Below, one piece after another: positions 9,336 to 57,624 of a stretch of DNA of 64,000 bases. The first letter of the stretch is position 1. Each line of letters begins with the position of its first letter. Origin of the DNA: Solwaraspora sp. WMMA2065 (GTDB lineage Bacteria; Actinomycetota; Actinomycetes; Mycobacteriales; Micromonosporaceae); the NCBI RefSeq assembly GCF_030345075.1, contig NZ_CP128361.1, positions 3,782,001 through 3,846,000 on the forward strand. The letters run 5' to 3'. The notes below the pieces were generated by a model. That model did no database searches, was not told where the DNA came from, and saw nothing but the letters and a program-made list of their open reading frames with translations. Made by a program: the position numbers and the translations under genes.

Positions 9336-9437
9336 CTCCGATCTCCACGCCGCCTAGGGCTGTTCAACAGTTGCTTGGTTTAGGCATGCTTCGTAGGAAG
9401 TGGTCCACAGTGTGGTCCGGGCGTGGAGGAGGGTGCC

Positions 9438-12400
9438 ATGAGTACGCCGTACCGCTGCGCCTCGTGCGGGCGGACCGTGCCGGCGGCGGCGACCTGCCCG
9501 CGGTGCGGTGCCGAGCAGCCGCAGTTCGCTGAGGACCTGGCCCGTATCGAGCGGTCCATCGCCGAAATGAAGGCCCGCGAGCTCTCGCTGGCCAAAGAGC
9601 AGAAGCAGACGGCCAGCGACCTGCAGGCGGCGATCTTCCAGCGGGACATCCTGTCCACCGGCGGTGCCGCCGGTCGGCGTGGCCCGGGGCCCCGGGTCTC
9701 GGTCCGCCGCCGGGCCGGGCGTCGACCGCCGACCGCCGACCAGGGCACCGCCCCGCCGAGGTTCCCCCGGCAGAGCCCCAACCTGGCCGCCGACGACGTG
9801 CCGCTGACCGGGCCGCCACCGGGCTCGGAACCGCCCGGCTCCGGCCCGGCCGGCTACCCGCCGGCCGCCGCCGGCGACGATCCGACCCAGGTCCTGTCGT
9901 CGGACGGCACCCGACCGGAGGCGTCCGCCCAGTCCATCCAGAACGTCCTGCTCGGCCTCGGCGCGCTGATGGCGGTGGTGGTGTTCGCCGCCGTCGCCAA
10001 CAGCGCGTTGCCCGATGTCACCCGGTTGAGCGTGCTGTTCGCCGGCACGCTGCTGCTGCTCGCGGCACCGCCCGCAGTCGCCGCCCGCGGGCTCACCTCC
10101 ACCGCGGAGACGATCGCCGCCGTGGCGCTGGTCCTCGTCCCGATCGACGGCTACGCGATCTGGGCGACCGACGCCGTCCGGGCCGGGCCGGTCAGCCCGT
10201 CGGCGTTCGCCGGCCTCACCTTCGCCGTCACCGCGCTGGTCGCCGCCGGTTACGCCGCCACCACCGGGCTACGCCTGCCCCGGTACGGCATGGTGCTCGC
10301 GATCCAGCCGGTGGTGCCGCTGCTCGGTCAGGACGTGATCCGGGGGCCTGCCGGGTGGGCGTCGGCCCTCGCCGTGGTCGCCGTGCTCGATCTGCTGCTG
10401 GTACGGCTACTGAGCGGCCCCGGGCAGCTCGGCGGCGGCTGGCGGTTCGGGTCGCCGACGGCGCCTCGACCCCGGCCGGACGCGCCGGCCGGGTCGGACA
10501 GCGGCAACCAGCCCGTCGACCGGTCCGGCGGGCCCGCCGGGTCAGCCGGGCTGGCACCGACCGGCACCGGCTCCGACCGGCCGGAGAACGCGCCGGAGGA
10601 GGCCGACGCCGTCGTCGAGGGTGAGCCTCCCGGTGGCGGCAACGGTGGTCGAGGGCCGGGCTGGCTGCCGCCGGCACCCACCGCGGCCGTCCTCTGGCTA
10701 CGCGACCTGATCTGGACCCTGCACGGGCTCGCCGTCACAGCCGCCCTGCTGTTCGCCGTGGTGGCGGTACTGCGCGCCGACACGGTGCCCGACGCGCTGG
10801 TCGCAGCGGCGGTGCTGCTGATCGCCGCCGGGATCGGGCTCGCCGGTGGATTCACCCTGGGCCACCCGCCACTGCCGGACCTGGCCGCCGGCGTGTTCGC
10901 CCTGGCGGTCATCGGCGCGGCCAGCCGGGTCGCGGCGGTCGCCCTGCCCGGTCCGGCGCTGCTGCTGATCGCCGCCGTGGTCGCCGTCGCCGGAATCGGC
11001 GTACGGGCCCTGCCGGAGCAGGTCCGCCGTGGCCCGCAGCTCGCGGCGGCGGCCGCGTTGACCGTGCTCGGCGTACTGGTCGCCGGTGGCGCGCTGCGAG
11101 CGGCGCTGGCACCGGTCCGCGCCGCGTTGCCCGCATGGCAGGCCGACCTGGCCGGCTACCAGCAGAGCCTGGTCGACTACGCCGGGCCCGCCGACTGGCA
11201 GCTCGCCCTGGCCGCGCTGTTGATCACCATCGCGGCGGCGGTCGCCATGCCGGTCGAATGGCGCCGCGAGGCGACCGTCGTCGGCGTGACGTTGACCGCG
11301 CTGGCCGTACCGGCGTCCTTCGCACTGCCCTGGTACGCCGCACCGTGGCTGCCGGTGCTCACCGCCGTCGCGGTGGCCGGCACAGGTTTCCTCACCGACA
11401 CCACCCGGGCCGCCCGGGTGCACGTGATCTGCGCGGCGGTGCTCGGCACCGCCGGTGCGGGCGCGGCGCTGGCCCGCCCCGGCTCCACCGCCGCCGCTCT
11501 GCTGGTGCTGGCCGCCGCCGGCGTACTGATCGCGGTGGCCGGGACCCTGCCGGAGGTACGTCGCCGGCCCGCCGGGGACGCGGTCGGCGGTTGGGCAGCC
11601 GGCGGTGCAGCATTCGCCCTGCCCGGTGGGGTGGCGGCGTTCGTCGCCGCTCTGGTACCGCCGCCGGGGCCGACCGCGCTGACCGTCCAGGAGACGACCG
11701 CCCCGATCCTGGCCGCCGGTTTCCTCGCGGTCTGCGGCACACTCGGCTACTCGGCGCTGGCGCAGGTGGCCGAACGGCAGATCCCCCGGCCGTTGACCAT
11801 CGGCACCGGGCTCGGGGCGCTCGCGGTCACCGCTGCGACGTTCGGCTCCCCCGGCGCGACCGTCGCCGACGTGTGGGTCGCCGTCGGGCTGCTGGTCGCC
11901 GCAGGGCTGCTGCTCATGGCACCGTCGATCGACGCCGGGCGGCGGGCGGACCGGCTGCTCGACGGCCCCGACTACGCCGCAGCGGCCGCCACCGCCGCGC
12001 TGGTCGGCACCCTGGCCAGGGTCAGCGCGATCGTGGTACCCGGCACCGAACTGGTGGCCAGCGCGGCGCTGACCCTGCTGGTGGCGGTCGCCGTACGCGC
12101 CCTGCCCGAGCACTGGCGGCGCGGACCGGTCCTGGGCACCGCAGTCAGCGGTGGAGTCATCGCCGTCCTCGCCGGCTACACCGCGGTCGCCGGCGGCGTC
12201 CAGGCACTGGCCACCCCGGGCCAACTCTGGCAGGCGGACCTGACCGCCTGGTCCACCGAGGTCGCCGCCAACTCGTGGCAGGTGCCGCTGGCCCTGGTAC
12301 TGCTCGCGCTGGCCGCCGCCGTCGCGCTGCCCCGACCCTGGTCGTTCCACGCCGCCGGCGTGCTGGTCGCGCTCGCCACCGTCGGCACCCCGGCGGCGCT

Positions 12401-14567
12401 CGGCCTGCCCTGGTGGTCGCCGATCGTGGTCGGATGCCTGGTCGCGATCGGGTACGGGATCGTCTCGGTGGCCGCCGACGATCCACAGGCAGCCACCGCC
12501 CGGGCCGGCGTCGCCGTGGCGGTCGCCCTGTACGCCATCGGCGCCAGCCTGGTCCGTCCGTGGACCACCGCCGCCGCGCTCGGTGTCGTGGTGCTGACCT
12601 GCGTGGTGGTGGCGGTACTCGCCCGAGTCGTCGCCACCGTGACGCTGGCCGACCAGTCCGCTCCGGCCGACCAGGCTGGTCAAACTGACCAGGATGATCA
12701 GGCAGGTACCGGGCAGCTCGTCCCCGACCGGGAGTCGATGCCGGCGCACCTGGCGAAGATCGGTGGCGCAGCGACCGGGGCCGCGCTGCTGGCGATGCCC
12801 GGGGCGGTCGCCGCGCTGGCCGCCGCGCTCGGCTGGACCACGGAGATCGTGCTGACCGGGGCGTTGGCCGCCTCGGCGCTCGGCGTCGCCGTGCTGGCCA
12901 TGGTCCGCCGCCAGGTGCCGCACTACCTGCCGTACGCCACCGTCGGGTTGGCCGGCGGCGCGACGGTCACCGCCCTCGCGTCGCTCCCGACCGACCTGCC
13001 GACCGGCATGTACGCCGCCGGGGCCGCACTGCTCGGCGTACTCGCCGAACTGCTGCGGGCCGCCACCCCACCGCCGGTGGACCTGTCCCGGCCGAGTCGC
13101 CGATGGTCCGGGCTCGGCGGCCGGTGGAGCCAGCCGGGGCCGCTGGAGATCGGCCGGGAGTGGGCGATCAGCCCGGTCAAGGGTGCGCTGGCAGCCGCCG
13201 CGCTGCCCACCGCGTTGGCCGTCGCGGCGGTGGCACCGACGCTGACCGCCGCGCTGGTCGAGCCGTACCGCACGCTGACCGCGATCTGGCAGGGACCACC
13301 GGCCGGGCTGCTCGATCCGCCGGCCGCCGCCGTGGACCCGACCAACGTGCTCGCCGCGCTGCTGCTCACCGTCGCGGCGGCGCTGGCCGCGACCGGGTTC
13401 AACACCGGCGGGCCGGGCCAGGCGGTTCCGGTGGTGCTGCCCGGCGTGGCGATCACCCTGCTGATCACCCCGATGTCGTTCGGCGTCGGCTGGCCGGCGG
13501 GCACCATGGCGGCGCTGCTGGTCTTCGCGGTCGCCATGGTCGGACTGGCGCTGACCGAACCGCCGCCGGACACCGAACGGCACCGGCCGCTGCGCATCGC
13601 CCGCCGGCTGCTGTTCCTGATCGGCCTCGCCGCCGGTGGCGCCGGGCTTGCCGGCGCGCTGGCCAACGATCAACTGACCGTCTTCACGCTGGGCAGCTCG
13701 GTGTGCGTCGGAGCGGTGGCCGCGTACGCCGGACGCAGCCAGCCGGCTCGGATCCTCGGCTGGCTGTTCGCCTCGGTGATGGCGCAGATGTTCGTACTGA
13801 CCGTGGGCCTTGTCGCCGGCCTCCCGCCGAGCTGGTCGGCGTTCGGCGTACTCGCCGTCGGTGCCGGCCTGCTGCTGTCCGCGACCCGGCTGCCCCGGCT
13901 CAGCCACCCCGAGGCGGTACGCGAGGCGGCGGTGGTCGAGTGGAGCAGCTACGCGGCCGCACTGCTCGCGCTGGCCCTGGCGTACGACTCGGCCGCGCAT
14001 CTGGCCGGGCTGCTGGCCGCCTGGGGCGCGGTGCTCGGTGTGACGGCCACCCGGCCGGGCCGACGCGCGATGGAGCGTCGGGTCCTGTTCTGGCTGGCGG
14101 TCGGCTGTGAGATCACCGCCTGGTGGATGCTGATGCGGATCACCGACGTGGCGCTCACCGAGGCGTACACCTTGCCGTTCGCCGTCCTCGCCCTGCTGGT
14201 CGGGGTCCTGGAACTGCGGCACCGGCCGGACCTGAGCAGTTGGACGGCGTACGGGCCGGCACTGGCCGCGGCGTTCCTGCCCACCCTGGTGCTGGTGATC
14301 AGCTCCGGGGAGAACAGTTTCCGGCAGGTCCTGTTGCTGCTCGGTGCGGTCGGCACCCTGCTGGTCGGGGCGATGAGTCAGCAGCAGGCTCCGGTGGTGG
14401 TCGGTACGGTGGTCAGCGCGGTGACCGCGTTGCACGCGTTGACCTTCTTCGGGCCGTGGCTGGTGCTGATCCCGGTCGGTCTGGTGCTGCTGGCGCTCGG
14501 GGCCAGCAGCGAGTGGCGCCGGCAGACCCAGGAACGGGTGCGGGGCGCGCTGCGCGGCATGCGCTGA
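9438..14567 (+). CDS. Giant SCO7613-type polytopic membrane protein with N-terminal zinc ribbon
   Basis: This 1709-residue protein starts at ATG 9438, preceded by GGAGGAGGG. Residues ~5-30 hold a zinc ribbon, CASCGRTVPAAATCPRCG (two CxxC knuckles), followed by a short charged helix (RIERSIAEMKARELSLAKEQK) that could form a coiled coil. A Pro/Gly-rich linker leads into a long chain of alternating hydrophobic segments, probably more than 40 membrane helices, interrupted by two acidic linkers near residues ~350-410 and ~1075-1105. The architecture matches actinobacterial proteins described as SCO7613 C-terminal domain-containing membrane proteins. The function is unknown. It stands alone between ugd and purE. 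Confidence 0.85.
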   Translation: MSTPYRCASCGRTVPAAATCPRCGAEQPQFAEDLARIERSIAEMKARELSLAKEQKQTASDLQAAIFQRDILSTGGAAGRRGPGPRVSVRRRAGRRPPTADQGTAPPRFPRQSPNLAADDVPLTGPPPGSEPPGSGPAGYPPAAAGDDPTQVLSSDGTRPEASAQSIQNVLLGLGALMAVVVFAAVANSALPDVTRLSVLFAGTLLLLAAPPAVAARGLTSTAETIAAVALVLVPIDGYAIWATDAVRAGPVSPSAFAGLTFAVTALVAAGYAATTGLRLPRYGMVLAIQPVVPLLGQDVIRGPAGWASALAVVAVLDLLLVRLLSGPGQLGGGWRFGSPTAPRPRPDAPAGSDSGNQPVDRSGGPAGSAGLAPTGTGSDRPENAPEEADAVVEGEPPGGGNGGRGPGWLPPAPTAAVLWLRDLIWTLHGLAVTAALLFAVVAVLRADTVPDALVAAAVLLIAAGIGLAGGFTLGHPPLPDLAAGVFALAVIGAASRVAAVALPGPALLLIAAVVAVAGIGVRALPEQVRRGPQLAAAAALTVLGVLVAGGALRAALAPVRAALPAWQADLAGYQQSLVDYAGPADWQLALAALLITIAAAVAMPVEWRREATVVGVTLTALAVPASFALPWYAAPWLPVLTAVAVAGTGFLTDTTRAARVHVICAAVLGTAGAGAALARPGSTAAALLVLAAAGVLIAVAGTLPEVRRRPAGDAVGGWAAGGAAFALPGGVAAFVAALVPPPGPTALTVQETTAPILAAGFLAVCGTLGYSALAQVAERQIPRPLTIGTGLGALAVTAATFGSPGATVADVWVAVGLLVAAGLLLMAPSIDAGRRADRLLDGPDYAAAAATAALVGTLARVSAIVVPGTELVASAALTLLVAVAVRALPEHWRRGPVLGTAVSGGVIAVLAGYTAVAGGVQALATPGQLWQADLTAWSTEVAANSWQVPLALVLLALAAAVALPRPWSFHAAGVLVALATVGTPAALGLPWWSPIVVGCLVAIGYGIVSVAADDPQAATARAGVAVAVALYAIGASLVRPWTTAAALGVVVLTCVVVAVLARVVATVTLADQSAPADQAGQTDQDDQAGTGQLVPDRESMPAHLAKIGGAATGAALLAMPGAVAALAAALGWTTEIVLTGALAASALGVAVLAMVRRQVPHYLPYATVGLAGGATVTALASLPTDLPTGMYAAGAALLGVLAELLRAATPPPVDLSRPSRRWSGLGGRWSQPGPLEIGREWAISPVKGALAAAALPTALAVAAVAPTLTAALVEPYRTLTAIWQGPPAGLLDPPAAAVDPTNVLAALLLTVAAALAATGFNTGGPGQAVPVVLPGVAITLLITPMSFGVGWPAGTMAALLVFAVAMVGLALTEPPPDTERHRPLRIARRLLFLIGLAAGGAGLAGALANDQLTVFTLGSSVCVGAVAAYAGRSQPARILGWLFASVMAQMFVLTVGLVAGLPPSWSAFGVLAVGAGLLLSATRLPRLSHPEAVREAAVVEWSSYAAALLALALAYDSAAHLAGLLAAWGAVLGVTATRPGRRAMERRVLFWLAVGCEITAWWMLMRITDVALTEAYTLPFAVLALLVGVLELRHRPDLSSWTAYGPALAAAFLPTLVLVISSGENSFRQVLLLLGAVGTLLVGAMSQQQAPVVVGTVVSAVTALHALTFFGPWLVLIPVGLVLLALGASSEWRRQTQERVRGALRGMR

Positions 14568-52107: not shown

Positions 52108-52953
52108 GTGGCCGACCCGGCCCCGCCCAGCCGATTCGTACCCGATGCCCGGGTGGGCCAGGGCGCCGACCCGGCCGATCCGTGTCTGGTGGTGGCCGGC
52201 CGCCGGCTGCTGGTCGGAGCCGACGGCGGACTACCGTCGGTGGCCGATCTACCGGCCGGCACCGAGTGGGTGCCGCTGGGCAGTCTGGACGGCACCCGGG
52301 TGTGGGCAGCCGGCCTGCCCGCCGTCGACGACCAGCTCGGCGGTTGGCGGAGCTGGCCGGCGATGGCCGGCGAGCTGGGTGAGCCACTCGCCGCGCTCGC
52401 CGGACGTGCCCTGCAGGTGATCACCTGGCGGCGTACCCACCGGTTCTGCGGAGCCTGCGCCACAGAACTGGTCGAGGTGCCCGGCGAGCATGCCCGCCGC
52501 TGCCCCGGCTGCGACCTGTACGTACCGATGCAGCTCTCCCCTGCCGTGCTGGCCTCGGTCACCCGCAGTCCCGGCCCCGACGGTGACGAGTTGCTGCTGG
52601 TCCGGCACACCTACGGGCCAACCGCCGTCTGGGCCCTGGTCGCCGGCTTCGTCGAGGCCGGCGAGACGCTGGAGGAGGCGGTGCACCGCGAGGTCGCCGA
52701 GGAGGTCGGCCTCGACGTGCACAAGGTGGACTACTTCGGCAGCCAGCCGTGGGCGATGTCCGGACCCGGCGTGGTGCTCGCCGGTTTCACCGCCCGCGCC
52801 GCGCCGGACGCCGAACCGGTCGTCGACGGCCGGGAAATCGCCGAGGCCCGCTGGTTCGCCCTGGACGATCTGCCGACCGAACTGCCGGCGGCGTACTCGA
52901 TCTCCCGCTGGCTGATCGAACACCAGCGCGCCGGCAGGTCAGACCGGCAGTAG
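52108..52953 (+). CDS. nudC: NADH pyrophosphatase NudC
   Basis: This 281-residue Nudix hydrolase has a zinc-binding pair of knuckles (CGACATELVE and CPGCDLYVP), then the Nudix box GFVEAGETLEEAVHREVAEE with VGL after it, and SQPWAMSGPG, the NudC-specific motif. It hydrolyses NADH and may remove NAD caps from RNA. The GTG start lies 10 bp after the lipoprotein stop; an earlier frame start overlaps that gene. The end overlaps the DUF885 gene by 15 bp on the other strand. Confidence 0.92.
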   Translation: MADPAPPSRFVPDARVGQGADPADPCLVVAGRRLLVGADGGLPSVADLPAGTEWVPLGSLDGTRVWAAGLPAVDDQLGGWRSWPAMAGELGEPLAALAGRALQVITWRRTHRFCGACATELVEVPGEHARRCPGCDLYVPMQLSPAVLASVTRSPGPDGDELLLVRHTYGPTAVWALVAGFVEAGETLEEAVHREVAEEVGLDVHKVDYFGSQPWAMSGPGVVLAGFTARAAPDAEPVVDGREIAEARWFALDDLPTELPAAYSISRWLIEHQRAGRSDRQ

Positions 52954-54555
52954 CGCCGGCAGGTGCCGCGGCGGCGGCGAGCCGTGCGCCAGCATCGCGT
53001 CGTGCCACTGCCGCGCCGGTACGCCGGCCGGCCGCGCCGTCGCCACCTGCGCCACCTCGGCGTAGCCCACGAAGTACGTGGACAGCTGGGTGGAGGTCAG
53101 CAGCGCCCGCCGCCACTTGCCGGCCGCCTCGCCCTCCTCCTGGAAGCCGCGGCCGGTCATCAACGCCATCGCCTCGGCCTGCGGCAGCTCCGCGCAGTGC
53201 GTCAACTGGTCCAGGATCGCGTTGATGGTCATCCGCAGCTGCATCTTCAACTGCTGCAACCGTACCGGCAGGCCGCCGAAACCGGCGTCGACCATCATCT
53301 CCTCGGCGTACACCGCCCAGCCTTCGACGAACGGCCCGGACCGGCCGACCGCCCGCACCCGGGTGGTGCCGAGGAACCGGCGGGCGTGCGCCAACTGCAG
53401 GAAGTGCCCCGGCATCGCCTCGTGCACGGTCAGGTTGCGCACCATGTGGTCGTTGTACTCACGGTAGAACGACTCGACCCGCCCGGCCGGCCAGCCCGCC
53501 GGCGTCGGTGCGATGCAGTAGAACGTCGGTACATCGGCCCGCTCCAGCACCCCCGGCGGGTCGCAGTAGGCCACCGCGACGCCCCGGGCGAACTCCGGCA
53601 TCTCCTGAATGACGCACCGGTCGTCCACCATCGACACCAGATCGTGAGCGGCGACGAACTCGGTTGTCTCCCGCATCGCGGTCTGCGCCAGCGACACGAT
53701 GGACGAGTCGTCCGGATGCTCGGCGGCCAACCGGGCCAGCGCGGTGCGTACCGTCTCGTCGGTGGCCGGCCCACCGGTCAGCTCGGCCGCCGCCACCCGG
53801 ATCTCACCGGTCACCCGCTCCAGGTTCGCCCAGGCCCGGTCCAGTACGTCGGCGGCAGTCAGCTCGGTGTCCAGGGTGTGCCACAGCTGGGCCTCCCACA
53901 GCCGCCGGCCCAGCCGCGGATCCCGCCGGTCGACGTCGCGGTCCAGGCTGTCGCGAAGCCAGCCGGCGAACTCGTCCAACGCGAACGCCGCCTCGGCCGC
54001 CAGCGGCTCGACCTTGTCCCGCAGCCCCGGCTCCTCGGCCAGCAGCCCCGGCACCTGGTCGCGAACCAGCGCGGCGGTACCGGCGAACTGGCCGGCGGCG
54101 GTCTCGGCGTGGATAGCCGGCACGCCGCGCAGCGTCTCGCGGGCGGTGGCCAGCACGTCCGGTACGGCGCCGAGCCGCCCGGCCAGGCTGGTCAGCCGCT
54201 GCGCGGCCGGCGCGAACGGGCGGGCGATCAGCCCGTGCAGTAGCGCCCCCGGGTTGTAGACCAGCGGATTCCACTCCCGGGAGCGCACCTCGGTCAGCTC
54301 GAACAGCCGCCGGTCGACCATGGCCGACAGGATGGTGTGGTCCACCCGCTCCTGGGTGGACAGCATGTCCGCGTCCACCTCGGCGAGCGCGTTGGTGGCA
54401 TCCAGCAGCATCGTCGCGGTCGCGGCGACCCCGTCGACCGACAGGTCCGGCAGCCGGTCGTCGTGGCGGTGGTCGCCGGCCGACGACGCCAGAGCGGGGT
54501 CGCTGGCGAGCAGCGCGTCGATGATGCGTTCAGCCAGAGGTACGAACGACGCCAT
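52939..54555 (-). CDS. DUF885 family protein (putative metallopeptidase-like)
   Basis: This 538-residue soluble helical protein carries the DUF885 hallmark HEAMPGHFLQLAHARR, a HExxxGH zinc-type motif, with FVEGWAVYAEEMMVDAGF downstream. The family is thought to include peptidase- or hydrolase-like enzymes. A TAGGGT -10 seven bases before the ATG supports the start and a leaderless message. The promoter lies next to a decayed MocR fragment. Confidence 0.9.
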   Translation of the reverse strand: MASFVPLAERIIDALLASDPALASSAGDHRHDDRLPDLSVDGVAATATMLLDATNALAEVDADMLSTQERVDHTILSAMVDRRLFELTEVRSREWNPLVYNPGALLHGLIARPFAPAAQRLTSLAGRLGAVPDVLATARETLRGVPAIHAETAAGQFAGTAALVRDQVPGLLAEEPGLRDKVEPLAAEAAFALDEFAGWLRDSLDRDVDRRDPRLGRRLWEAQLWHTLDTELTAADVLDRAWANLERVTGEIRVAAAELTGGPATDETVRTALARLAAEHPDDSSIVSLAQTAMRETTEFVAAHDLVSMVDDRCVIQEMPEFARGVAVAYCDPPGVLERADVPTFYCIAPTPAGWPAGRVESFYREYNDHMVRNLTVHEAMPGHFLQLAHARRFLGTTRVRAVGRSGPFVEGWAVYAEEMMVDAGFGGLPVRLQQLKMQLRMTINAILDQLTHCAELPQAEAMALMTGRGFQEEGEAAGKWRRALLTSTQLSTYFVGYAEVAQVATARPAGVPARQWHDAMLAHGSPPPRHLPALLPV

Positions 54556-54562
54556 GCCACCG

Positions 54563-54568
54563 ACCCTA
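54563..54568 (-). promoter_or_regulatory. Probable -10 (TAGGGT) of a leaderless promoter
   Basis: TAGGGT on the minus strand is seven bases before the DUF885 ATG. Confidence 0.5.
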
Positions 54569-54581
54569 GGCCATCCCACCG

Positions 54582-54705
54582 ACGCTGTGCGTCGAGCAAC
54601 CCGGCGAGTGTCCGGACCGCCGACTCCAGTTCGTCCGGTCAATACGCGGCATAGCCGAGCACCAGTCCGGGCCGAGCCGCCGGTGGTGGCGGCCCGAGCC
54701 GGGCT
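54582..54705 (-). pseudogene. C-terminal fragment of a MocR/GntR-type PLP regulator
   Basis: Minus-strand translation gives ARPGLVLGYAAY, then an in-frame TGA, then PDELESAVRTLAGLLDAQ. This is the typical end of MocR-family regulators (aminotransferase-like C-terminus with LGYA). The rest of the gene is absent and the piece abuts the EamA fragment. The stop and the lack of any upstream part mark it as a relic. Confidence 0.6.
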
Positions 54706-55130
54706 GCGGACAGCGAAACCGGGCGCTCGCCGGCGAGGTGGCGTTCTCACTGCTCGCCGCCGCCCTGCTGGACCGGCTCGGGGCGGTACGGGTCTCCGCG
54801 TACAGCTGCGGGTTGGCGGTGCCGATCTTCGCGCTGGCCGCGCTCGTCGCCGGGGAGGCGACCCGCTGGCGGCTACCGACGGCGGCCGAGGCGGCGGCGC
54901 TCGGCTACCTGGCGGTGATTCTGACCGTGGTGGGGTTCCTGGCCTGGTTCACCGGGCTGCGCCGGCTCGGGTGGAACGCGCCGGCATGTTCATCGGTGTG
55001 CTGCCGGTCGCCACCCTCGTCTCGGCCGCTCTGCTCGACCGGGAACCGCCGTCGGCCGGGCAGAGCGTCGGCGTACTGATCGTCGCGACCGGCCTCGCCA
55101 TCGGGTTGGGTCGAGATTCGCCGGACCGAC
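54706..55130 (+). pseudogene. C-terminal fragment of an EamA/DMT-family transporter, frameshifted
   Basis: The region encodes the second EamA repeat: ALAGEVAFSLLAAALLDRLG, then TVVGFLAWFTGLRRLG in one frame, then, after a one-base deletion near 54970, ERAGMFIGVLPVATLVSAAL in another, ending GVLIVATGLAIGLG. The first half is missing. It lies head-to-tail with the MocR stump, as expected when a deletion removes the 5' halves of a divergent pair. A sequencing slip could mimic the frameshift, but not the truncation. Confidence 0.7.
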
Positions 55131-56086
55131 CCCCCTCCCGCCGGGTAGTCGACGCCGCGCCGGTCGAGCCAGAACACCAGCAGGGCGTGCGGCGCGGTTA
55201 ACCCGGCCAACACCGCGAAACCAGTGGACAGCCCTACTTCCGGCGTGGCCGAGACGGCGAACGGCACCAGGACAACCAGTACGGCCCCGGTAGGGATCGC
55301 CGCCTGGGCAGCGAACCGCCACATTGCCGGACCGAGCCGACCGGCGGCCAGGGTGGCAGCGTTGCCGGGGTCGGCCACCAGCAGCCGGGCCACATGCCGC
55401 ACCGAGTGACCCGCCGCGAAGTAGGTGCCGAACGCCCACGCGGGCGGCACCAGCACGAACACGGCGATCAGCAGCCCGAGGTATCCGGCGTCACCGCGCC
55501 GGCCAGCCCGCAGGTCGTCGACCATGGTGGCGACCACCGCCGCGCCAGCGAGCGCTACGGCAGTCACCCGGGCCTCGGTGCTCAGGAGGTACGCCGAACC
55601 GGCGCCGATGCTCTCCAGCAGCGGATCAACCTGGTCCGGCCAGAGCGTCAGCGGCAGCAGCACCGGCGGCGCTCCGTAGGCGAGCACGGCGTACGGCCGA
55701 GTCGGTGTTCGTCGCGCGTCCCGTTGCCGGTGGAACGCCTCGTCACCGGCGCCGAAATGGACCATCGCGAGGATGAGGAAGGCGACGAACGCCGGACCGG
55801 GGGCGCGGTAGCAGATCCACCAGACGAGGACTGCGAGGCAGACGTACCCGACGAGTAGACCTGCCCGTGCTCGCCATTCGTCGGCGGCGGGTTTCAGCCA
55901 GGCCGGCACCAGATGGTCAACGGCACCGTGGGGTAGGCCGAGTAACAGCCCCACCAGCAACGGCAGCGTGGAATCGGCCGTTGATGTCGGGTGGCTCAGC
56001 ACCGGCAGTTGGATCAGCAGCACCGCGCCGAACGCCGGGACGACGACCCGCCCGGCACGGCGCAGCAGCCAGCGGCCGGCACTCAA
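54905..56086 (-). CDS. blh: Brp/Blh-family beta-carotene 15,15'-dioxygenase-like protein
   Basis: This 393-residue membrane protein has the four conserved histidine motifs of Brp/Blh: GLPHGAVDHL (H53, H58), VHFGAGDE (H110), GHSVRHVARL (H227, H231) and APHALLVFWLD (H300). Such enzymes cleave beta-carotene to retinal at the membrane. Start: a TTG overlapping the rhodopsin stop (TTGA); no ribosome site is seen, so coupling is likely. After residue ~310 the frame continues for ~80 residues antisense to the EamA fragment, which suggests that the original stop codon was lost. Confidence 0.85.
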   Translation of the reverse strand: MSAGRWLLRRAGRVVVPAFGAVLLIQLPVLSHPTSTADSTLPLLVGLLLGLPHGAVDHLVPAWLKPAADEWRARAGLLVGYVCLAVLVWWICYRAPGPAFVAFLILAMVHFGAGDEAFHRQRDARRTPTRPYAVLAYGAPPVLLPLTLWPDQVDPLLESIGAGSAYLLSTEARVTAVALAGAAVVATMVDDLRAGRRGDAGYLGLLIAVFVLVPPAWAFGTYFAAGHSVRHVARLLVADPGNAATLAAGRLGPAMWRFAAQAAIPTGAVLVVLVPFAVSATPEVGLSTGFAVLAGLTAPHALLVFWLDRRGVDYPAGGGSVRRISTQPDGEAGRDDQYADALPGRRRFPVEQSGRDEGGDRQHTDEHAGAFHPSRRSPVNQARNPTTVRITAR

Positions 56087-56784
56087 TGCACGACGTGCAG
56101 CGCATCCCGGTTGGCGAACAACCGCAGCCGCCCCAGGTCGAACGCGCTCCACACGATCTTCATCAGCACCGTCAGGACCACGAACACCGCCGTCGTGGTG
56201 GGCTCATCGAACACGCCGAGACCGGCTGGCCCCACCAGCCAGACCAGGGTGAAGCCGAGCCACAGGGCGCTGAGCAGCGCCGCCAACTGGTTGAAGTGAG
56301 TCCGCATGTGGTCCGGCTGCTGGGCCGCCGCTCTGCGCAGCGGCCCCCAGATCACGGCATAGTTGGCGCCGAGCGCGAGCACGCCTACGCCGTAGGCGAG
56401 GTACCGCGTGGTCGGTTCGAGCGCCAGGTCCCCGACCAGTCCGCAGAAGATCATGGGAACGCTGGTCACTACCACGAGGGCCACCAGGTCGGTCCTCCTG
56501 CCGGCCGACGCATGCGTTCCGACCAGCACCAGCGCGTAGCCGAGCAACGGGGCGGTGACGATCCAGTCGGCGTAGTACCCCCAGTGCACGGCATGGTCGC
56601 CGACCGTGGTCAGGGCGCCGCCGAGCGCCATCACCGAGTGCCAGATGGCAGACCAGATCAGGATGACGATCGCGAGCAGGTACACGGCGACCGGGACGCC
56701 CTTGGGCTCGCGCATCCAGCGGACGAAGTACAGCACGGCACCGAGCGCGACCACCACGAAGGACCACAACCACAACTGCGACAC
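56083..56784 (-). CDS. Microbial rhodopsin with non-canonical key residues
   Basis: This 233-residue seven-helix protein carries the retinal Schiff-base lysine K209 in VVLTVLMKIVWSAFD (position of BR K216) and the helix C segment HWGYYADWIVTAPLLGYALV. Ungapped comparison with bacteriorhodopsin gives D73 (=D85), W74 (=W86) and T77 (=T89) kept, but Y70 for R82, A84 for D96, T179 for P186, F178 for Y185 and T205 for D212. The residues expected for E194 and E204 are Ala and Thr. The proton-donor and second counterion are therefore gone, so a classical outward proton pump is unlikely. Start: the second GTG after GGAGG; one codon earlier is possible. Confidence 0.85.
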   Translation of the reverse strand: MSQLWLWSFVVVALGAVLYFVRWMREPKGVPVAVYLLAIVILIWSAIWHSVMALGGALTTVGDHAVHWGYYADWIVTAPLLGYALVLVGTHASAGRRTDLVALVVVTSVPMIFCGLVGDLALEPTTRYLAYGVGVLALGANYAVIWGPLRRAAAQQPDHMRTHFNQLAALLSALWLGFTLVWLVGPAGLGVFDEPTTTAVFVVLTVLMKIVWSAFDLGRLRLFANRDALHVVH

Positions 56785-57027: not shown

Positions 57028-57624
57028 ATGAACGAGCAGGCCGGCACCGACGAGAGCATCCACGAACCGACCGACGGCGGTACGGCAGCACGCGCGCCCC
57101 GGCGGCAACGGTGGACCCGCCGCGCCCCATGGCTCGCCTTCGTCATCGCCGCCACGGTGCTCGTCGTCGACCAGCTGACGAAGATGTGGGCGGAGGCGAC
57201 GCTGACCCGGGGCGAGCGGACCCCGCTGATCGGCGACGCCCTCGGCATTCAACTGATCTACAACCCGGGTGCCGCGTTCTCCTTTGGCGAGAACACCACG
57301 TGGATCTTCACCATCGCCGCCGCGATAGGCGTCGGCGTGACCGCCTGGTTCGCGTGGCGGGCCCGCTCCCGGGCCTGGGCAACGGCGCTCGGCCTGGTGC
57401 TGGGTGGGGCGTTCACCCATCTGCTCGACCGGCTGTTCCGGAAGCCGTCGTTCGGGCAGGGCCACGTCGTCGACTTCATCGCGTACTTCGACTGGTTCAT
57501 CGGCAACGTCGCCGACATCGCGCTCTTCTTCGGCGTCGTCACGTTCCTCACCCTGGAACTGATCGGCATCCGGCTCCGCCCGGAGGTATCCGAGCCGACG
57601 ACCGGTGACGGTGCCGACCGGTGA
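57028..57624 (+). CDS. lspA: Lipoprotein signal peptidase (prolipoprotein signal peptidase II)
   Basis: This 198-residue four-helix aspartyl protease of the membrane cleaves lipoprotein signal peptides. Motifs: VLVVDQLTK with the first conserved Asp, NPGAAFSFG, GGAFTHLLDR (D134) and FIGNVADIAL (D163), the catalytic pair. The GN normally found in GNxxDR is TH here. A long charged N-terminus (about 30 residues) precedes the first helix. The ATG start follows GGGAGAA; a much longer open frame upstream is a shadow of the rhodopsin genes. Confidence 0.9.
   Translation: MNEQAGTDESIHEPTDGGTAARAPRRQRWTRRAPWLAFVIAATVLVVDQLTKMWAEATLTRGERTPLIGDALGIQLIYNPGAAFSFGENTTWIFTIAAAIGVGVTAWFAWRARSRAWATALGLVLGGAFTHLLDRLFRKPSFGQGHVVDFIAYFDWFIGNVADIALFFGVVTFLTLELIGIRLRPEVSEPTTGDGADR

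Follow-up and report, generated by a model that had tools for sequence, protein, structure and literature searches.

Arg82 and Asp212 of BR are among the residues most often invoked in accounts of vectorial proton transfer; does a rhodopsin that has lost the equivalents of both belong to a new class or to a known lineage? The question is raised by a gene located in a stretch of 64,000 nucleotides of Solwaraspora sp. WMMA2065, hereafter termed the window. This gene (56083–56784, minus strand, stop codon at 56083–56085) encodes a protein of 233 residues that matches PF01036 with an E-value of 9.5e-34 and 117 bits (cut-off 24.6) and carries the retinal lysine, Lys209, in its seventh helix, which identifies it as a type 1 rhodopsin. 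It is the only PF01036 match in the whole 6.74 Mb single-contig genome. Its reading frame is also open upstream of the GTG codon at 56784, which is the likely start because five relatives start at the same place.

Active-site residues of the window rhodopsin

All codons given here lie on the minus strand. Lys209 (56158–56160, AAG), the predicted retinal attachment site, falls on BR K216, and Asp73 (56566–56568, GAC), the sole acidic residue left at the Schiff base, falls on BR Asp85. Arg82 of BR is replaced by Tyr70 (56575–56577, TAC) and Asp212 by Thr205 (56170–56172, ACG); the five other members of the clade described below carry His and Ser at these two positions, and ASR and BcXeR have Pro at the latter. 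By alignment, Thr179 (56248–56250) corresponds to BR Pro186, with Thr also in one clade member (L027) and Pro in the other four, A84 to D96 and T197 to E204. His49 (56638–56640, CAC) occupies the position of BR Tyr57, which is His in all six clade members and Tyr in their 20 sister sequences. Both Asp73 and Asp216 (56137–56139), the equivalent of ASR Asp217, are Asp in 26 of the 26 xenorhodopsin-type Micromonosporaceae sequences. Over 249 residues, the BR reference sequence matched PDB chain 1o0a_A without a difference, and a second alignment of 50 rows returned the same calls at BR positions 82, 85, 212 and 216. Codons and alignment thus agree with an earlier note on this DNA, which had reported K209 and D73 as intact and Tyr, Ala, Thr, Thr and Thr at BR 82, 96, 186, 204 and 212. 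With Tyr, Ala and Thr at Arg82, Asp96 and Asp212, the sequence also bears out its proposal that this is not a classic proton pump, and the retention of D73 with T205 at Asp212 is in line with the single counterion that it had suggested.

Mis-alignment as the cause of the missing Arg82 and Asp212 could be ruled out: Tyr70 stands three residues ahead of the helix C Asp-Trp and Thr205 four residues ahead of the helix G Lys, gap-free between. Arg does not occur between residues 26 and 95 of the protein, nor does Asp or Glu between residues 195 and 215, so no re-alignment restores either residue. The shift of helix C or G that the earlier note had considered, which would return the canonical Arg and Asp, was checked and did not occur, the register being fixed and candidate residues being absent nearby. 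A sequencing or gene-call artefact was likewise ruled out, since the Arg82-less clade is found in five other genomes with intact frames. In BR, Y57, R82, Y185 and D212 are part of a cage of hydrogen bonds that flanks the Schiff base toward the outside. All four cage positions differ from BR in the window protein and D85 alone remains; Y57H and Y185F, two changes linked to the loss of Arg82 and Asp212, had been absent from the earlier note.

Family placement and distribution

In the best 60 of 110 PDB matches, the nearest sequences were BcXeR (5.7e-39) and then ASR, and a profile search gave the same result. A weak AlphaFold2 model built from four sequences (mean pLDDT 67.5, pTM 0.58), from which no pocket geometry was drawn, displayed seven long helices and a short C-terminal one; when submitted to Foldseek, it retrieved BcXeR chains at ranks 1–10 and ASR at ranks 11–14, with TM of about 0.5–0.6 and rmsd of 6 or more. 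Within the family of the window, 33 of 354 genomes matched PF01036 at an E-value of 0.001 or better, 29 of them above the cut-off. We used the 27 strong genomes (E < 1e-25) and left out as partial two genomes above the cut-off (G036 and G334) and four below it. A sequence that BLAST could align with the window protein is present in 26 of the 27, window included, and the remaining genome (G279) holds only an NDQ-motif rhodopsin.

An IQ-TREE phylogeny of 50 rows grouped the window protein with sequences from five further genomes in an Arg82-less clade with 100/100 support: L027, of the same genus and 69% identical, L023–L025, of genus g24, and L026, of Plantactinospora. This clade is nested inside the 26 Micromonosporaceae xenorhodopsin-type rows (99/97), and these rows together with ASR and BcXeR stand apart from the outgroup, which we chose ourselves, with 100/99 support whether the tree had 50 or 44 rows. 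The clade retained 100/99 support in the 44-row tree, from which six long-branched or distant rows and 11 trait columns had been removed. ASR and BcXeR are the two characterized proteins by which the trees represent xenorhodopsins; their join is weak (82/27 and 85/40), and meeting long branches were flagged for ASR with BcXeR, for BR with L093 and for two plasmid rows with the xenorhodopsin side. On the second tree the loss of Arg82 requires two changes: that of the clade itself and a further one in L021 (genome G272), a xenorhodopsin-type protein outside the clade in which Arg82 independently became Gln.

At 19 positions of the window protein, the clade (n = 6) and its sisters (n = 20) have no residue in common. 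Residues L42 (BR P50), H49 (Y57), I75, P110, H163, F178 (Y185) and M208 (A215) are found in 6/6 clade members and 0/20 sisters, the Met just before the retinal Lys standing where the sisters have Ser or Thr. At BR 82, the clade has five His and one Tyr against 19 Arg and one Gln in the sisters, and at BR 212 five Ser and one Thr against 16 Ser and four Pro. The separate clade expected in the earlier note is therefore real, but not with the conserved Tyr and Thr foreseen there: His (5/6) and Ser (5/6) are the commonest residues, and the Tyr82/Thr212 pair is private to the window sequence. Ser213 is kept in 6/6 clade members. The equivalents of PoXeR E35 and D108, which were mapped via ASR E36 and Q109, the PoXeR sequence itself being outside the alignment, are Val34 and Ser108 in the window protein; the former is also lost in L026 and L027 and kept in L023–L025, and the latter is Ser or Thr throughout the clade. 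Judged from these alignments, the clade retains one active-site carboxylate (D73) and the cytoplasmic Asp (D216).

Sampling beyond these genomes yielded few relatives. The clade profile matched 26 of 396 genomes of a phylum sample, one being the window's own; 17 of the other 25 matches were aligned (L036–L051 and L053), and both Arg82 and Asp212 are present in every one of the 17, as in ordinary pumps. Matches in an order sample (11/397 genomes) all came from genera g1 and g24 of the window's family, and a named collection provided three relatives, Micromonospora sp. CB01531, Micromonospora sp. MP36 and Plantactinospora mayteni. Scans with the single protein found no relative among 17 stretches from a genome-contig collection or nine stretches from viral contigs, and a class sample returned only the window's own genome (1/394). 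Six rhodopsins at 29.5–33.3% identity were recovered from plasmids, with Arg82 and Asp212 kept in all four inspected. In the window's genus, two of seven genomes carry the rhodopsin and five lack the gene.

A second rhodopsin, with Asn, Asp and Gln at BR 85, 89 and 96 (NDQ) and Asp at 212, was encountered in 15 of the 26 loci L002–L027 (L003–L006, L009, L012, L013 and L015–L022; 54 loci scanned), and is located elsewhere in G208 and G221. NDQ is the motif of sodium-pumping rhodopsins, and in 14 of the 15 loci this gene is divergent from the xenorhodopsin-type gene. Sodium-pumping rhodopsins have been surveyed (PMC5531490), and since one from Micromonospora is already described (PMC10743670), the NDQ rhodopsin is not new in kind.

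As sequence, tree and fold search all point to xenorhodopsins as nearest, the window protein is best classified as of xenorhodopsin lineage, a minor offshoot of an established type of protein and not the wholly new class that the earlier note had listed among the possibilities; the clade by itself opens no new class. Loss of D212 is a xenorhodopsin mark, and Pro at this position has been proposed as their diagnostic (PMC3198991). The window protein combines the loss of Asp212 (T205) with one counterion (D73) and an Asp at the position of the cytoplasmic acceptor (D216). Pro is absent at the D212 position, with Thr in the window and Ser in 5/5 of its clade kin, and we therefore file the protein as xenorhodopsin-derived and not as a canonical member. 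Rhodopsins without Arg82 have been published as "Alt-rhodopsins", a set of 399 sequences for which PMC9601134 gives 214 of His type and at least 10 each with Tyr and with His; among those newly described there, nine are assigned with confidence to actinobacteria. With its retinal Lys (K209), a non-Arg residue at 82 (Y70) and seven helices in the weak model, the window protein answers to that description. The earlier remark that its combination of residues could not be matched to a named family is thus not supported, the loss of D212 marking xenorhodopsins and Tyr or His at Arg82 having been published among Alt-rhodopsins (PMC9601134). Replacement of Arg82 and loss of D212 are each already known; their joint change in one Micromonosporaceae clade (Y57H, R82H/Y, Y185F, Met215 and S/T212) is new as far as the literature was searched. 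That search covered mainly freely accessible papers, with the supplementary tables of PMC9601134 outside its scope, and returned no Micromonosporaceae rhodopsin of this type.

The rhodopsin-blh pair and its chromosomal site

The end of the rhodopsin gene is overlapped by the frame of a Brp/Blh beta-carotene 15,15'-dioxygenase gene (blh; 54905–56152, minus strand), which scores 164.6 bits with TIGR03753 (cut-off 95) and 150 bits with PF15461. The family models span residues 65–330 of this ORF, and its last 85 residues form a tail outside the models. Antisense to this tail lies a short, remnant-like EamA-transporter-like ORF (54738–55079, plus strand; 27.2 bits, just below the Pfam cut-off). Elsewhere in the genome we found two adjacent lycopene cyclase domains (TIGR03462), and a search with PF05834 lycopene cyclase gave three partial matches, one over the cut-off. 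Retinal synthesis is therefore plausible, given blh beside the rhodopsin and lycopene cyclase domains in the genome. The pairing with blh holds in 6/6 clade members, and blh lies within a flank of about 1.5 kb of the xenorhodopsin-type gene in 23 of 25 relatives, the exceptions being L002 and L011.

In the window and in genome G304, the pair sits between lspA (signal peptidase II; 57091–57624, plus strand), upstream of it, and a DUF885 gene (52939–54750, minus strand), downstream. G306 and G307 have the lspA and DUF885 neighbors without the pair; in G305–G309 it was absent from the 9 kb compared, and PF01036 had no match genome-wide. At an E-value of 1e-8, the pair alone is shared between the window region and L071–L074 (12.5–15 kb each). 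When the window was compared with G304, NG86 synonymous divergence reached 0.51–0.52 for the pair and 0.14–0.24 for five flanking genes, and YN00 was less clear (0.78–0.98 for the pair, 1.28 for lspA and 0.26–0.49 for the other four flanks). The raised synonymous divergence of the pair argues for an older or replaced cassette and not for relaxed selection only, and suggests an earlier split of the cassettes than of the chromosomes, or the replacement of one cassette. In this comparison of the window (54905–56784) with G304 (L070), rhodopsin and blh thus display 2–4 times the NG86 synonymous divergence of the five flanking genes, as would an exchange of the two-gene cassette in place. Away from this locus, the window also contains an open frame of 1727 codons (9384–14564, plus strand) whose GC3 is high and which matches no Pfam family at 1e-5.

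Candidate functions and known systems

We infer retinal binding, proton direction, transport and the role of His49 and Tyr70 from the sequence, and on that basis give about an even chance to a xenorhodopsin-derived protein that works as a weak inward pump, its proton moving in the direction of the cytoplasm. Retinal would be attached to Lys209, with Asp73 as sole counterion. With neither Asp212 nor Arg82 present, the hold on the Schiff base from the outer side would be weak, and after light-driven isomerization the Schiff-base proton would pass toward the cytoplasm via waters and Ser213 to Asp216. Refilling of the Schiff base from the outer side would fall to Asp73, next to which an arginine has given way to His49 and Tyr70 (the latter His in relatives), residues able to titrate or to form hydrogen bonds, and the net result would be slow inward proton transport. 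In BR, the R82Q mutation lifts the pKa of D85 to about 7.5 (PMC10743670); without Arg82, that of Asp73 would be expected to be higher as well, with a red shift near neutral pH. Xenorhodopsins are described as carrying one negative charge near the Schiff base, their D212 position being Pro, and the published explanation for inward proton transfer to a cytoplasmic Asp is the single counterion that D212 loss leaves (PMC5118547). The acceptor is D216 in PoXeR (PMC5118547) and D220 in NsXeR, where D76 is the counterion and the likely donor (PMC8518763). In the L state of BcXeR, three waters form a chain that ends at Ser211 (PMC13093656); counted along the alignment, this residue falls on Ser213 of the window protein. 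Inward pumping has been described for xenorhodopsins that carry Trp or Phe in place of Arg82 (PMC9601134), which makes Arg82 dispensable; since the window protein keeps the counterion, the Ser and the acceptor and lacks Arg82 as the Trp and Phe types do, inward-directed proton transfer is favored. The pairing with blh in 6/6 clade members, the lycopene cyclase domains and the NG86 dN/dS of 0.37 for the rhodopsin against G304 also speak for this reading. Net pumping is opposed by the loss of the E35 and D108 equivalents, mutation of either of which significantly cut pumping in PoXeR (PMC5118547), by the change from Ser/Thr to Met before the Lys in 6/6 clade members and by the lack of Pro212. 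The inward-pump reading is also opposed by BcXeR and ASR, which both keep Arg82.

The same losses lend some credit to a photochromic sensor like ASR, in which a proton would be moved or retinal isomers switched without net transport and the state read by some partner, a possibility that we take seriously while thinking it the less probable outcome. ASR belongs to one of the two closest characterized groups, and wild-type ASR, with Gln at the D108 position, transports no ions (PMC5118547); the window protein too has no acid there and has lost E35 as well. The genome holds a homologue of ASRT (PF07100, 138 bits), but more than 400 kb from the rhodopsin and unlinked to it. ASRT occurs in 7/7 genomes of the genus, though only two carry the rhodopsin, and in 3/6 of the Arg82-less clade. 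Its frequency is 13/27 in rhodopsin carriers versus 59/327 in others of the family (Fisher p 0.0007), and 10/24 versus 44 of about 135 within genus g24 (p 0.48, for an assumed genus size of 159). Around the clade, blh is the sole shared gene. ASRT was rejected as a linked transducer, the homologue being distant and showing no association within genus g24. This homologue lies outside the window (G000:C1:3408457-3408798; L095), and ASRT was detected in 72 of 354 family genomes, 59 of these 72 being without a strong rhodopsin match. We regard as doubtful a related proposal, that the clade represents a functional type of its own, its outer cage (Y57, R82, Y185 and D212) having been swapped for a histidine/serine set, so that a lone Asp would be partnered by a titratable His (Tyr in the window) where an arginine is usual, giving a pH-gated retinal switch or sensor and not a pump.

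Decay of a xenorhodopsin, its lost residues reflecting relaxed selection, would fit the 70–72% amino acid identity of rhodopsin and blh between the window and G304, as against 89–96% for five flanking genes, the NG86 dN/dS of 0.37–0.41 for the pair (0.37 for the rhodopsin) versus 0.13–0.28 in the flanks, the absence of the rhodopsin from five of the seven genomes of the genus and the long blh tail outside the family models. We nevertheless judge it improbable: the frames are intact in 6/6 members, Lys, Asp73, Trp74 and Asp216 are invariant, the clade's His57, Phe185, Met215 and Leu50 have been kept in 6/6 since the ancestor, and the synonymous divergence of the pair is raised too. Least probable, and in our view very unlikely, is another mode of transport, be it a conductance for anions or cations or the pumping of protons outward via a rewired His/Tyr network. 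Some channelrhodopsins and kalium rhodopsins do have another residue in place of Arg82 (PMC9601134), but the window protein has no donor at BR 96 and no D212 and keeps the carboxylate at 85. In the best 60 of 110 PDB matches, no entry is named as a channel, and the chloride-pump entries 8xx8, 6wp8 and 7zou score 2e-15 to 1.5e-11 against 5.7e-39 for BcXeR.

The clade changed Arg82 and Asp212 with their partners Tyr57 and Tyr185 yet kept Asp85, and Arg82-bearing sisters from the same family provide a comparison set that makes the role of Arg82 in inward-directed rhodopsins testable. With outward pumps such as BR and proteorhodopsin, the window protein shares the retinal Lys and the Asp85 equivalent, but it lacks R82, D96, D212 and E204. 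It differs from heliorhodopsin in its Asp73 counterion, which is Glu there (E107 in 48C12), and in its best matches, BcXeR and ASR. A likeness of the clade's Ser at 212 to S237 of 48C12 (PMC6951262) was considered and is not claimed, and neither is an equivalence of His80 in 48C12 with BR Tyr57, for which a search gave no source. ASR falls on the same side of the tree, has the equivalent Asp75 and Asp217 and likewise no acid at the PoXeR D108 position; unlike the window protein, it keeps Arg72, Tyr51, Tyr179, Glu36 and Pro206, and no ASRT gene adjoins the window gene. Tyr or His at Arg82 is shared with Alt-rhodopsins, but these form an umbrella and not a lineage, compared here by description, and may or may not include this clade; the H-type group that PMC9601134 details keeps DxxxK in helix G and is of giant-virus origin. 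The xenorhodopsins BcXeR, PoXeR and NsXeR resemble the window protein in having one counterion, no D96, and the cytoplasmic Asp (216 here) and Ser213 kept, and some published members are also without Arg82 (Trp or Phe; PMC9601134). They differ from it in that the window protein has His57, Tyr82 (His in its kin), Phe185, Met215 and, instead of Pro at 212, Thr (Ser in its kin); BcXeR keeps Arg82, and the E35 and D108 of PoXeR have become V34 and S108. The sister Micromonosporaceae xenorhodopsin-type proteins (L002–L021) are 43–47% identical to the window protein, have Ser or Pro at 212 and are adjoined by blh in 18/20 cases, but they keep Arg82 in 19/20 (Gln in L021) and both Tyr57 and Tyr185 in 20/20, and 14/20 of their loci also hold the divergent NDQ-motif rhodopsin.
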